Part shown: positions 3,348-21,023 of the stretch, one piece after another
Layout of the letters: every line of letters starts with the position of its first letter
Numbering within the stretch: position 1 is the stretch's first letter
DNA from: a virus
Virus record (IMG/VR): IMGVR_UViG_3300011116_000136
Span: 1 to 21,279 of that record
DNA: 21,279 nt
Strand: one strand, 5' to 3'
Position numbers and translations under genes: made by a program
Notes under the pieces: model-generated
What the model was told of the DNA's origin: nothing
What the model saw: only the letters and a program-made list of their open reading frames with translations
Database searches by the model: none

Positions 3348-3655
3348 TATACTTGTCCTATCTCTTTCATTACGGCTGCGGTTTTTGGTGTTATGTCTTT
3401 CGTCTTAGGCATAGTGTCCGCATTATACGCTTTGCCTAAAATCTCTGATGCTTTATGGGCTGCTTCTACATGATGCATAGTTGTCCCTGCTGGCTGTATA
3501 CCTTGTGCTCTTGCATCTCGGTAAGCCTGTAATTCAGAGTTCCATTTCTTGTCTGGAATATCTCGCTTGGCGTCTCCTGAGTTCATCTGTAAAGTTGAAC
3601 CCTTGCATCCAAAACAATTATCTACATACTCTGGATGATACTCCCAATGTTTCAT
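3347..3655 (-). CDS. Hypothetical protein with N-terminal CxxC
   Basis: This 102-residue protein begins MKHWEYHPEYVDNCFGCKGS; the single CxxC at 14-17 plus nearby His residues could bind a metal, but a second cysteine pair is absent. A long helical part follows (ELQAYRDARAQGIQPAGTTM, then HHVEAAHKASEILGKAY), ending in a basic tail. It lies second after the capsid gene, with AGGGGAC upstream of its ATG, and its TAA overlaps the next start. I recognise the HPEYVxxCFGCK style of opening from other actinophage proteins but know no function. Confidence 0.65.
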   Translation of the reverse strand: MKHWEYHPEYVDNCFGCKGSTLQMNSGDAKRDIPDKKWNSELQAYRDARAQGIQPAGTTMHHVEAAHKASEILGKAYNADTMPKTKDITPKTAAVMKEIGQV

Positions 3656-3662
3656 ATGTCCC

Positions 3663-3932
3663 CTATATTGCTGTAAAGTTTGCCTCAGTTATTCCTAAAC
3701 CCGATGCTATTAATGCTGCCTTGGTTGTATCGTTAACTATATGATTATAACCACCACGATAAAATTCTTGATAATCATCGATTGCTTCGTCTAGTGCATA
3801 TCGAACTTTTGAATAAGTTCCACCACTTTTAGCAATGCTGATACCTCTATCTAGTTTATAGAAGTAAAACAATCTGTGTTTACCCGCTGGTCCTTCTCGA
3901 ACCGTAGGTGTTTTAAATACATAATCTGCCAT
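3663..3932 (-). CDS. Hypothetical 89-aa protein next to capsid gene
   Basis: The longest frame opens further upstream at 3992, but the ATG at 3932-3930 is preferred: it has AAGGAG seven bases upstream, and the longer form would run through the hairpin after the capsid gene. The 89-residue product begins MADYVFKTPTVREGPAGKHR and has a beta-rich N-terminus (HRLFYFYKLDRGISI), a helical middle (KVRYALDEAIDDYQEFYRGG) and a small C-terminal domain (AALIASGLGITEANFTAI). Immediate proximity to the major capsid gene suggests a head-completion or decoration role, as gene order in tailed phages often shows; the sequence itself does not prove it. Confidence 0.65.
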   Translation of the reverse strand: MADYVFKTPTVREGPAGKHRLFYFYKLDRGISIAKSGGTYSKVRYALDEAIDDYQEFYRGGYNHIVNDTTKAALIASGLGITEANFTAI

Positions 3933-13855: not shown

Positions 13856-14425
13856 CTACTTAGAATATTGTATTTTAGTAATAATTGGACCACTTGAGTA
13901 TATATCCCAATTGGTTGCTATTTCGATTGACTTTCTGATAATCTTCTCTGCTTTATCTGCATCATCAGTGCTGCGTATTCTATAAGCCTCCATAGCACCA
14001 AGGGCAATATCGCTACCAGAACCAGAGTAATAGATACCACGAACATCACGGTCCCAACTGTAATCCTCAAAAATAGGATACAGAACGCCGCGAATTGCAA
14101 TAATAAATTGCGAATCATGTGAAGCATAATCCCCGTCTTCTTTCATATCATAACCTGCATCTATAAATAATTTTCTCATAGATGGTATAAATTTTTTAGT
14201 CATGAATATATCTAGGTCTTCATTTAACTTAGGTCTAGGTGGTTTCCAACCAAATTGTAATAAGTTAGAACCTCTACCTGAACCAGAGCCAGCAATTAAC
14301 ACGCCATTGTTTTCGACAATCTTGTGTGTTGCCATTTCAATAGGACGACCAGAATCATCAGATGAACGTGAATCGCTTCCGATTACACACCATCCATCAC
14401 CTTGTATAGCAGCAAGTGTCGTCAT
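13856..14425 (-). CDS. Proteasome/HslV-type Ntn-hydrolase peptidase
   Basis: The 189-residue protein has the 20S proteasome beta/HslV peptidase fold. Removal of Met1 would expose Thr2 as the N-terminal nucleophile (TTLAAIQGDGWCVIGSDSRS). Further matching residues are Asp18 in GSDSR, Lys35 in HKIVENNGVLIAG, the GSGSD turn at 135-139, and Asp174 with Ser177 in DIYSSGP. These correspond to the T1, D17, K33, S129, D166, S169 set of proteasomes. No propeptide precedes the threonine, so the enzyme would be active after Met removal. It sits between portal and the head genes, the usual place for a prohead protease, with AGGGGGG ahead of its ATG. It may cleave scaffold or head proteins; a cell-directed proteolytic role is the alternative. 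Confidence 0.8.
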   Translation of the reverse strand: MTTLAAIQGDGWCVIGSDSRSSDDSGRPIEMATHKIVENNGVLIAGSGSGRGSNLLQFGWKPPRPKLNEDLDIFMTKKFIPSMRKLFIDAGYDMKEDGDYASHDSQFIIAIRGVLYPIFEDYSWDRDVRGIYYSGSGSDIALGAMEAYRIRSTDDADKAEKIIRKSIEIATNWDIYSSGPIITKIQYSK

Positions 14426-18783: not shown

Positions 18784-18810
18784 ACTCTTAATAACTAAAT
18801 AAAGGTTAGA

Positions 18811-18896
18811 CTACTTAGCGGTAGCCTAGAGAGATACGCCCCACGACAATTCGGCGGTTGCGCTGAAGGGATACTAACTAGACTACTACTAAGTAG
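18811..18896 (+). promoter_or_regulatory. Folded 5' leader of first early gene
   Basis: CTACTTAG (18811-18818) and CTAAGTAG (18889-18896) form a perfect 8-bp closing stem around about 70 bases that are themselves rich in short G/C complements (GCGGTAG, GGCGGTTGCGC). It ends 27 bases before the start codon, placing the ribosome-binding site just outside the fold. It could be a regulatory leader; no known riboswitch class is recognised. Confidence 0.4.
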
Positions 18897-18923
18897 CCTA
18901 ACCCCTAGCGAAAGGTGAGAGTA

Positions 18924-19250
18924 ATGCCATATAACCCCTTCGGGGTTAGTGGTAGTATAATCACTCCACCGCATAAGGTTCGAACCACTAAGGCGTGGCA
19001 AGGTTCACGCTCAAGGCGGTTCAGTAATCTAGTGGTGAGAGATAAGGCGGGCAATATAATCGTTGCTATCGAGGATAGCCAAGCGGTTAAACTTGCTAGG
19101 CGTACAATTAAGAACGCCAAGCCTAAAGATACTACCCCTAAACCCTTAACCGAGTTAGAATTGCGTACTATTGCGTTAGATGAACGCCGTAGGCAATTTG
19201 AAGCACAGCAAGCCGAGAATTATCGCAAGTTAGTCGGCAATTACAATTAG
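18924..19250 (+). CDS. First early gene, hypothetical basic protein
   Basis: The 108-residue product starts at ATG 18924 with AGGTGAG six bases upstream; a GTG nine bases earlier is rejected because it sits within that ribosome-binding site. It opens MPYNPFGVSGSIITPPHKVR, is basic, has a short beta unit (NLVVRDKAGNIIVAIEDSQA) and ends in a charged helix (ERRRQFEAQQAENYRKLVGN). There is no cysteine, membrane span or catalytic motif. It is the first gene of the rightward block behind three tandem promoters and is likely expressed early. I do not recognise it; a DNA- or host-factor-binding role is possible but unsupported. The stop is TAG. Confidence 0.7.
   Translation: MPYNPFGVSGSIITPPHKVRTTKAWQGSRSRRFSNLVVRDKAGNIIVAIEDSQAVKLARRTIKNAKPKDTTPKPLTELELRTIALDERRRQFEAQQAENYRKLVGNYN
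18932..18948 (+). promoter_or_regulatory. Stable hairpin at start of first early gene
   Basis: TAACCCC and GGGGTTA pair perfectly around TTC within the first nine codons. A 7-bp stem with four G-C pairs this near the start codon could slow initiation or be a binding site for a translational regulator. It may also only reflect codon content. Confidence 0.45.
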
Positions 19251-19259
19251 TAGCCGATA

Positions 19260-19310
19260 GTCCTAGCCCGTAGGTCGGGTGTCTATGGGGTTCGATACCC
19301 CACTAGGACA
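19260..19310 (+). ncRNA. Miniature tRNA-like fold (51 nt)
   Basis: GTCCTAG (19260-19266) pairs over 7 bp with CTAGGAC (19303-19309), exactly like an acceptor stem, with a discriminator A after it. Directly before the 3' strand lies a canonical T arm: TGGGG, the 7-base loop TTCGATA, and CCCCA. Between acceptor and T arm, where the D and anticodon arms would be, there are only 19 bases, holding one small hairpin (CCCG-TAGGT-CGGG). No CCA is encoded (A then CGCC). The gene is thus too short to decode; it is either a shrunken tRNA gene, a tRNA mimic, or part of an attachment site. Confidence 0.55.
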
Positions 19311-19329
19311 CGCCGTAAGTCGAGGATAC

Positions 19330-19358
19330 TTGACTTATAGCCCTAAGTATGCTATACT
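19330..19358 (+). promoter_or_regulatory. Early promoter P4 (TTGACT-N17-TATACT)
   Basis: The -35 TTGACT is at 19330-19335, the spacer is 17 bases and the -10 TATACT is at 19353-19358. The upstream ACTTGACTTAT block is identical to P1 and P2. Transcription from it would give a very short leader, about 13 bases before the first start codon. It drives the small genes and probably the amidoligase. Confidence 0.75.
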
Positions 19359-19362
19359 TAGG
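19342..19362 (+). promoter_or_regulatory. 9-bp operator palindrome over the P4 -10
   Basis: CCTAAGTAT and ATACTTAGG are perfect 9-base arms around GCT, and the right arm contains the -10 box. This is the strongest inverted repeat in the early block. It suits a dimeric repressor that would occlude the promoter; no repressor gene is visible in the window. Confidence 0.6.
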
Positions 19363-19808: not shown

Positions 19809-21023
19809 ATGCCGATAGATGATGATGAGGACACCGAGTATGGTTGCGCCACATGTGATTATCGTTCGACTAGCGAGGACGACTTCGTAATAGTAGGTGA
19901 TGACCTACTATGTGAGAGTTGCCGAGCATGGTGTAATTATTGTGAGGAGTATTGCCACAATGATAACACCCACTATGTCGAGGGTGTCGGTGATTATTGT
20001 GAGAGTTGTTGGGAGAACCACACTCACTATTGCGAGAGATGTAGTTGTACCTATGCCGAGAACGATAGCATGTACAATATCGAGGATAGGGGTGAGTATT
20101 GGTGCGAGGGTTGCTATGAGAGTGATGGCAATTATTGTGATGATTGCGACCAATACTATGCTAGAGGGTGTAATAATTGTGGTGATGGCGGTAGGGGTTC
20201 TCGACTTATCAACGACTACTCTTACAAGCCTGACCCTAAGTTTATAGGTAAAGATAAGAATAACCTATACTTTGGAATAGAATTAGAGATGGAGATTAGG
20301 TCAGGCGACCTAGATGATAGTGCTAGGTATGTATCAGAGAATATAGGTAATTGGGTTTATATGAAGCAGGATAGTAGTATAAATCAAGGTGGGTATCGTG
20401 GCTTTGAGTTAGTATCTCACCCTATATCCTTTAGTAGTTGGTCAGACTTCCCACTATTCGATAAGACCTTAGACTATCTAAGAGAACACCAAGAAGCAAG
20501 GTCGTGGGACGCTAAGAGTTGCGGATTACATATACATGTAAGTAGGGCAGGGTTCAAGGGTGGTGCTCATACTCATAGGTGGCTAACGCTAATCTATAAG
20601 AACGCACCTGAGATGATGAAGTTTGCTGGTCGTAAGTCAGATTACGCCAAGTTCAATGATGTGTGGAAGTATGATGAGTACGACAGACCATACTTCACCC
20701 TAGCCGATAAGGTGGCTAGTCCTAGACAGGTGAACACCGAGAGATATTCTGCGGTAAATACGCAGAACGAACACACGCTAGAACTTAGGTTCTTTAGAGG
20801 GACTACTAAGCCAAGCGGTGTCCGTAGTGCTATACAATTAGCACATGCTAGTATAGAATATACTCGCAACCTTACCTTATCAGATGTAAAGATAGGTATG
20901 CTAGGTTGGGATTGGTTCTATGAATATGTGGAAGCCAACAATGGCTTCTACCCTGACTTATATGAGCGTATGTCCAAAGTACGCTCATTAAGTATCAACA
21001 GTAAAGAGTTAGTCAATGCGTAA
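19809..21023 (+). CDS. Zinc-ribbon amidoligase (ATP-dependent COOH-NH2 ligase)
   Basis: The 404-residue protein joins a carboxyl group to an amine using ATP. The N-terminal 125 residues hold eight CxxC pairs (C13/16, 35/38, 42/45, 64/67, 75/78, 99/102, 110/113, 121/124), enough for about four zinc sites. The glutamine-synthetase-like amidoligase domain (about 150-355) shows YFGIELEMEI at 154-163, KQDSS, GFELVSHP at 198-205, CGLHIHVSR at 238-246, RYSAVN at 312-317 and TLELRFFRGT at 323-332, the metal/ATP and substrate positions of the family (Amidoligase_2). AGGGGG lies seven bases before the ATG. A class II glutamine amidotransferase follows 12 bases later, so ammonia or glutamine-derived nitrogen is a likely substrate; target proteins or peptides are unknown. 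Confidence 0.85.
   Translation: MPIDDDEDTEYGCATCDYRSTSEDDFVIVGDDLLCESCRAWCNYCEEYCHNDNTHYVEGVGDYCESCWENHTHYCERCSCTYAENDSMYNIEDRGEYWCEGCYESDGNYCDDCDQYYARGCNNCGDGGRGSRLINDYSYKPDPKFIGKDKNNLYFGIELEMEIRSGDLDDSARYVSENIGNWVYMKQDSSINQGGYRGFELVSHPISFSSWSDFPLFDKTLDYLREHQEARSWDAKSCGLHIHVSRAGFKGGAHTHRWLTLIYKNAPEMMKFAGRKSDYAKFNDVWKYDEYDRPYFTLADKVASPRQVNTERYSAVNTQNEHTLELRFFRGTTKPSGVRSAIQLAHASIEYTRNLTLSDVKIGMLGWDWFYEYVEANNGFYPDLYERMSKVRSLSINSKELVNA

Follow-up and report, generated by a model that had tools for sequence, protein, structure and literature searches.

For tailed phages, most of what is known about RNA processing concerns RNase III and RNase E sites. In its substrates, bacterial RNase P recognises the T loop and measures the 12-bp helix formed by the acceptor and T stems; the 3' RCC pairs with the P15 loop of RNase P, and pairing of the leader with the RCC motif is a hindrance (PMC10731613, PMC4919913). 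The E. coli and B. subtilis enzymes prefer a U at -1 (PMC10731613). Non-tRNA substrates of bacterial RNase P include pre-tmRNA, pre-4.5S RNA and the his operon mRNA, alongside minimal substrates consisting of an acceptor stem and T arm (PMC11143913, PMC10731613), and those linked to phages are single cases such as the phi80-induced M3 RNA, the C4 antisense RNA of P1 and P7 and the T4 gene 32 mRNA (PMC11143913). The use of tRNAs as punctuation is, in the literature searched, a mitochondrial concept. Among open-access papers we found no earlier description of a mini tRNA-like element such as the one reported here, an absence that is no proof of novelty.

Here, we describe a 51-nt element at positions 19260-19310 of a 21,279-nt stretch of viral DNA (the window), together with elements of the same shape in other phages. 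These resemble the known bacterial substrates of RNase P in their 12-bp helix, T loop or mimic of it, G1, unpaired -1 base and R73-C74, and phage RNAs are already represented among such substrates. They differ in that they recur, as a family with several copies to an operon, systematically between the early genes of many phages, and in the incompleteness of their RCC; cleavage is here something that we infer. As in mitochondrial punctuation by truncated tRNAs, (mini-)tRNAs lie between the genes of a polycistronic transcript, but the setting is a bacterial virus and the phage elements, having no anticodon arm, cannot decode, so that serving as the mark itself is their only plausible use. The best Rfam match, mascRNA/menRNA (RF01684), shares with them an acceptor stem, a small D-like arm, a T arm and the want of a normal anticodon arm. 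However, at 22.1 bits against a gathering threshold of 42.5 (E 0.13) this match reaches only half the gathering score and falls below threshold, and mascRNA/menRNA, which belong to the 3' end of vertebrate nuclear lncRNA, are not homologous. Membership of a known Rfam family was rejected more generally, the window having no match at gathering and matches elsewhere being sub-threshold. Canonical phage tRNA genes have the same acceptor and T arm with the T-loop consensus, whereas the elements are 43-52 nt long, with no anticodon, no CCA and no ARAGORN call.

The element and its surroundings

The preliminary description of this locus reported a 7-bp acceptor stem, a discriminator base, a 5-bp T stem and a TTCGATA loop, and all of these are confirmed at their positions in the sequence of the 21,279-nt window (Table 1). 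It also held that no room was left for D and anticodon arms. This is right for the anticodon arm, since only a D-like hairpin and a 6-nt linker separate the acceptor from the T arm and there is no anticodon stem-loop within 19260-19310, but it needs correction for the D arm, as positions 19267-19279 form a 4-bp hairpin that covaries in relatives. ARAGORN made no tRNA call at 19260-19310, and no CCA is encoded at the 3' end of the element. A pattern of 7-bp acceptor plus T arm gave a single match across both strands of the window and none in 60 Markov shuffles. The minimum-free-energy fold of 19260-19310 is the acceptor/D-like/T-arm structure (-25.1 kcal/mol, z -2.7), and its 121-nt context folds into three modules, a hairpin, the element and a second hairpin (z -5.1).

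Table 1. Features of the element and its neighbourhood (window coordinates)
Feature	Position	Strand	Remarks
Early gene upstream, 111 aa	18915-19250	+	Probable start 18924 (MPYNP...); stop codon 9 nt 5' of element
Hairpin directly 5' of element	19233-19258	+	Holds stop codon of 111-aa gene; from fold
Leader -4 to -1, GATA	19256-19259	+	Unable to pair with A-C at 73-74
Acceptor stem 5' strand, GTCCTAG	19260-19266	+	Pairs with 19303-19309; covaries in relatives
D-arm-like hairpin, CCCG-TAGGT-CGGG	19267-19279	+	4 bp, loop with GG; from fold; relatives covary
Linker, TGTCTA	19280-19285	+	6 nt in place of anticodon arm and variable loop; unpaired in fold
T arm, TGGGG-TTCGATA-CCCCA	19286-19302	+	5 bp, canonical T loop; from pattern, covariation and fold
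T stem strands	19286-19290/19298-19302	+	
T loop, TTCGATA	19291-19297	+	
Acceptor stem 3' strand, CTAGGAC	19303-19309	+	Coaxial with T stem, 12-bp helix
Positions 73-75, A-C-G	19310-19312	+	Discriminator A = 19310
Hairpin directly 3' of element, TAAGTC..GACTTA	19312-19341	+	Overlaps -35 box of next promoter
Sigma-70-type promoter of next block, TTGACT-17-TATACT	19330-19358	+	
Amidoligase-like protein	19809-21023	+	Cysteine-rich N-terminus; query for syntenic relatives

Terminase, portal and head genes run leftward in the window, and from about 18.4 kb onward lies the rightward early region. The stem of the hairpin 5' of the element takes the forms TCGGC/GCCGA, TCGGTG/CACCGA and TTGGC/GCCAA among relatives and is missing in one subclade; the hairpin on the 3' side was recognised by eye in most relatives inspected. 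Because a promoter directly follows the element, separation of the flanking messages is not strictly needed in the window itself. An intrinsic terminator was considered and rejected, there being no terminator-like site on the + strand and no U tract; the element is followed by ACGCCGTAAG.

Conservation and covariation among relatives

The terminase of the window virus is 47% identical to those of Streptomyces phages and 75% identical to those of OX376640 and OX376641, which are the Planktophila phages LanE43AprE7 (E7) and AprF5 (F5). Both are given in PMC10202952 as lytic phages isolated on 'Ca. Planktophila' strain LanE-43, and its main text, in the part covered, makes no mention of mini tRNA-like elements. 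A WhiB gene was present in 15/15 relatives tested, which makes an actinobacterium the very likely host of the window virus and its relatives; the carriers of the element are very likely a family of viruses of freshwater actinobacteria. One contig of this family (L065, RFQY01000240.1) lies inside a Rhodobacteraceae MAG and is probably mis-binned. The related Streptomyces phage Immanuel3 has 22 ordinary tRNAs and no mini element. When 22 loci were scanned for tRNAs, 18 had none and the others had one each (L169) or a cluster (L122).

Near relatives were found through the adjacent amidoligase, the 111-aa gene or the element itself and, as in the window, their element comes after the 111-aa gene and before a conserved promoter; its synteny is secure because the flanking protein gene is conserved independently. 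Across ten distinct versions from this near clade, double changes occur in 6 of 16 pairs and 98% of positions are paired, compared with 34-45% for slid partners. Compensatory changes, which the preliminary description had named as the check to make, are found in the acceptor stem (C-G to G-C; AG/CT to GC/GC), the D-like stem (CCCG/CGGG to and from CCGA/TCGG) and the T stem (TGGGG/CCCCA to TAGGG/CCCTA). Since an alignment of all families did not align the 5' acceptor strands, covariation was counted within the safely alignable clades A2 and A6 alone.

Of the amidoligase-linked contigs, 57 have 700 nt or more of upstream sequence, and the element was identified by descriptor or pattern in 49 of them. 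Besides these, the covariance model R1 detected it in two (L107 and L115) and a seemingly related T-loop hairpin was seen by eye in three (L091, L096 and L104); neither element nor related hairpin was found in the three most distant of the 57 (26-35% identity). The predicted fold in L099 is a continuous 12-bp hairpin with the loop TTCAACT and no inter-arm insertion, L109 and L111 have lost the 7-nt T loop and kept the helices, and some relatives have no D stem. What endures is thus the length of the helix, which in L099, L109 and L111 outlasts the tRNA shape, and not a shape suited to decoding.

In many members of the window's clade a second, weaker element stands 5' of the 111-aa-like gene (recognised partly by eye). 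In L090 it occupies 3654-3700, arranged as GTGTCG - CCCC TAGTA GGGG - T arm - CGACAC, and with this second element upstream a 111-aa-like gene of the L090 type is flanked by two elements; a similar second element was seen by eye in L065, L107, L108 and L110. A related T-loop hairpin stands 5' of the 111-aa-like gene in L091, L096, L099, L103 and L104. A second match in L010 (16 bits, 69 nt) is probably due to chance.

Elements of the same shape in distant phages

The observation proved larger in extent than the preliminary description reported. Distant phages carry, in intergenic gaps and on the early strand, elements of the same shape that are unrelated in sequence, with acceptors such as GCCCAC, GCCTAT, GCTCAC, GCTTGC, GGCGTG, GTCGCGC, GCCCAGG, GCCCCCC, GCCCCGC and GGATAAG, among others. 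Across about 17 acceptor families, the combined helix of acceptor and T stem measures 12 bp (11 in a few), G1-C72 is shared, most have a T-type loop and the -1 base is unpaired in nearly all. The helix is split as 7+5, 6+6 or 8+4 bp, and a few elements have 11 bp or a single mismatch. Every family has R73-C74, position 75 is never C and the -1 base is never U. The leader consensus is R-R-Y-(A/C/G) immediately before the G, which in most families cannot pair with R73-C74; the exceptions are L122 and L103, where C(-1) is able to pair with G73. Neither positions 73-75 nor the leader bases formed any part of the selection criteria in the element searches concerned.

A geometry-only search of terminase-linked loci, in which no loop sequence was demanded, returned 33 matches in the early sense orientation, 16 of them with a T-loop sequence. 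The corresponding figures were 24 and 0 for early antisense, 15 and 0 for late sense and 26 and 1 for late antisense. With the T loop included, the descriptor found 57 unique strong elements compared with 4 in 1.16 Mb of shuffled sequence. Fourteen syntenic 6+6-bp elements show double changes in 9 of 12 pairs and are 100% paired, a percentage that is partly built in because the descriptor used to pick these members demands pairing. The stronger evidence is the double changes at syntenic positions together with the unselected loop and flank signals. A model built from these 14 elements finds those of L116 (43.5 bits) and L117 (33.8 bits), neither of which was used in building it, and scores the first element of E7 weakly at 22.8 bits. 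Of 23 elements, all 23 have a GG in the region that separates the arms (shuffle mean 17.2, p 0.0007). No DNA match of the element was found in annotated phages. In MW202733, where the amidoligase is present, descriptor matches are without the G1/C74 flanks and look like chance, and this candidate was rejected.

No tested element falls within a same-strand ORF that has an SD/ribosome-binding site. Where both neighbours were called, a stop codon precedes the element by 5-22 nt and a start codon follows it by about 35-75 nt. One early operon of E7 contains three elements, arranged as 52 aa - element - 47 aa, 55 aa - element - 53 aa and small ORF - element - 104 aa, with G1 at 2208, 1794 and 1434 on the minus strand of OX376640. 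This stretch has a single promoter-like match, which is weak; L170, L179 and L195 have two elements each. In the L117-L122 group a promoter lies just 5' of the element, which there is consequently a 5' leader and no inter-gene mark.

Discussion

The fold, the covariation and the position of the element are observed, and we consider it probable that the element is a natural minimal RNase P substrate that punctuates the early mRNA. We infer this from the 12 bp, G1-C72, R73-C74, the mostly unpaired leader and a helix that outlasts the tRNA shape. In the window, the determinants of RNase P recognition appear as a coaxial acceptor/T-stem helix of 7+5 bp, a T loop at its distal end and a leader that cannot pair with positions 73-74 (GATA and AC). 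Of the 3' RCC(A) that would face the GGU of P RNA, R73-C74 is kept in all families and C75 is absent. On such a substrate, host RNase P would dock on the T loop, measure 12 bp and cut between -1 and G1 (19259/19260). The upstream mRNA would be released shortly past its stop codon, by a few nucleotides, and in the window with a hairpin at its end. RNase Z or another 3' nuclease would probably then trim after position 73. CCA is an anti-determinant for RNase Z, and trimming by that enzyme fits because the element encodes none. For the downstream mRNA this would mean a 5' end followed by a hairpin and a ribosome-binding site of its own, and adjacent early messages would thereby be separated, with different lifetimes. 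It is about as likely as not that a family of actinophages uses dedicated anticodon-less mini-tRNAs, cut out by host RNase P and a 3' nuclease, as operon punctuation, which would then have arisen more than once from unrelated sequences.

Several observations stand against a role in RNase P cleavage. The -1 base is never U and the RCC lacks its C75; 11 bp or one mismatch is seen in a few elements, the T loop is lost in L109 and L111, and the promoter shifts in position, lying shortly before the element in some phages and shortly after it in others. Some members, moreover, were picked up with descriptors for which pairing is a requirement. The preliminary description had offered both an RNA-processing signal, set between the first early transcript and the next block, and a tRNA mimic or decoy; we favour the former, given that the same shape recurs in early-gene gaps, and the latter gained no specific support.

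The element could instead act uncut and in cis, as an mRNA stabiliser or leader that blocks exonucleases or shapes ribosome access to the neighbouring small genes. The flanking hairpins and modular fold would suit such a function, as would the position in distant phages, where the element belongs to a 5' leader that the promoter immediately precedes. We nevertheless regard it as rather unlikely, since a simple hairpin would suffice and neither the 12-bp ruler and the T loop nor G1-C72, R73-C74 and the unpaired -1 base would be explained. Unlikely, too, is a decoy or titrator, in which the mini-RNA, released or displayed, would occupy a tRNA-binding factor (RNase P, RNase Z, the CCA-adding enzyme, TruB/TrmA, EF-Tu or a tRNA-cleaving defence toxin that recognises the acceptor or elbow). 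In keeping with this, the folds are compact, and an elbow contact is suggested by the canonical T loop and by the GG, like that of a D loop, in every inter-arm region tested. However, a decoy would not need a position tied to short early-gene gaps with constrained distances, the element has neither an anticodon nor an encoded CCA, and in some members the T loop and D arm are lost while the helix length persists.

That the element is a DNA-level palindrome, an operator or origin merely resembling a tRNA, seems very improbable. An inverted repeat (19342-19362) is indeed present at the neighbouring promoter, but T loops are strand-asymmetric (16 early sense against 0 early antisense), the helix geometry is interrupted and the single-stranded positions 73-74 are conserved. 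Phages commonly use the 3' half of a tRNA gene as an att site, yet an attachment site copied in this way from a host is hardly credible here. The preliminary description had proposed a search for such a tRNA; in 84,980 species genomes the exact 23-nt 3' half matched no host tRNA and solely another phage contig, which disfavours an attP. The acceptor sequence, moreover, varies among close relatives with covariation of its 5' strand, several copies occur per operon, and E7 and F5 are lytic isolates (PMC10202952). A decaying remnant of a real phage tRNA gene is scarcely tenable in spite of the 22 tRNAs of Immanuel3, given selection on all helices, one shape shared by many unrelated acceptors and 18 of 22 scanned loci with no tRNA at all; a host tRNA remnant was likewise not supported.

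Were RNase P punctuation true, it would be the equivalent in a bacterial virus of what tRNA punctuation is in mitochondria, turning one early transcript into several mRNAs with protected ends. A mark made of structure alone that uses an essential tRNA maturation enzyme of the cell would be an economical means of breaking up operons in small, streamlined genomes, and many natural minimal substrates would show what RNase P needs in helix length, loop and positions -1 and 73-75. With the element, early operons of abundant freshwater actinophages can also be searched for in genomes, and a cultured phage-host pair exists for testing (E7/F5 on LanE-43).

Other features of the window and its relatives

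A 9-bp inverted repeat at 19342-19362 of the window, CCTAAGTAT-GCT-ATACTTAGG, lies over the -10 box of the promoter that follows the element and is kept in relatives with compensatory changes, as in an operator or hairpin. The 5' UTR of the 111-aa gene (18805-18912) contains long complementary arms with a conserved GGCGG(G)TGCGCTG core, in relatives too; it has no Rfam match and looks like a second structured RNA. Among the structural genes, 13856-14425 encodes a protein with a weak match to a proteasome subunit (Pfam, just under the cut-off). The early regions of L117, L118, L119 and L122 contain phage-specific palindromes (TGTCGGGTTAGCCCGACA, CTATCCGTTTAAACGGATAG, GTATGATAATCATAC), repeated 5' of the ribosome-binding sites of several early genes.
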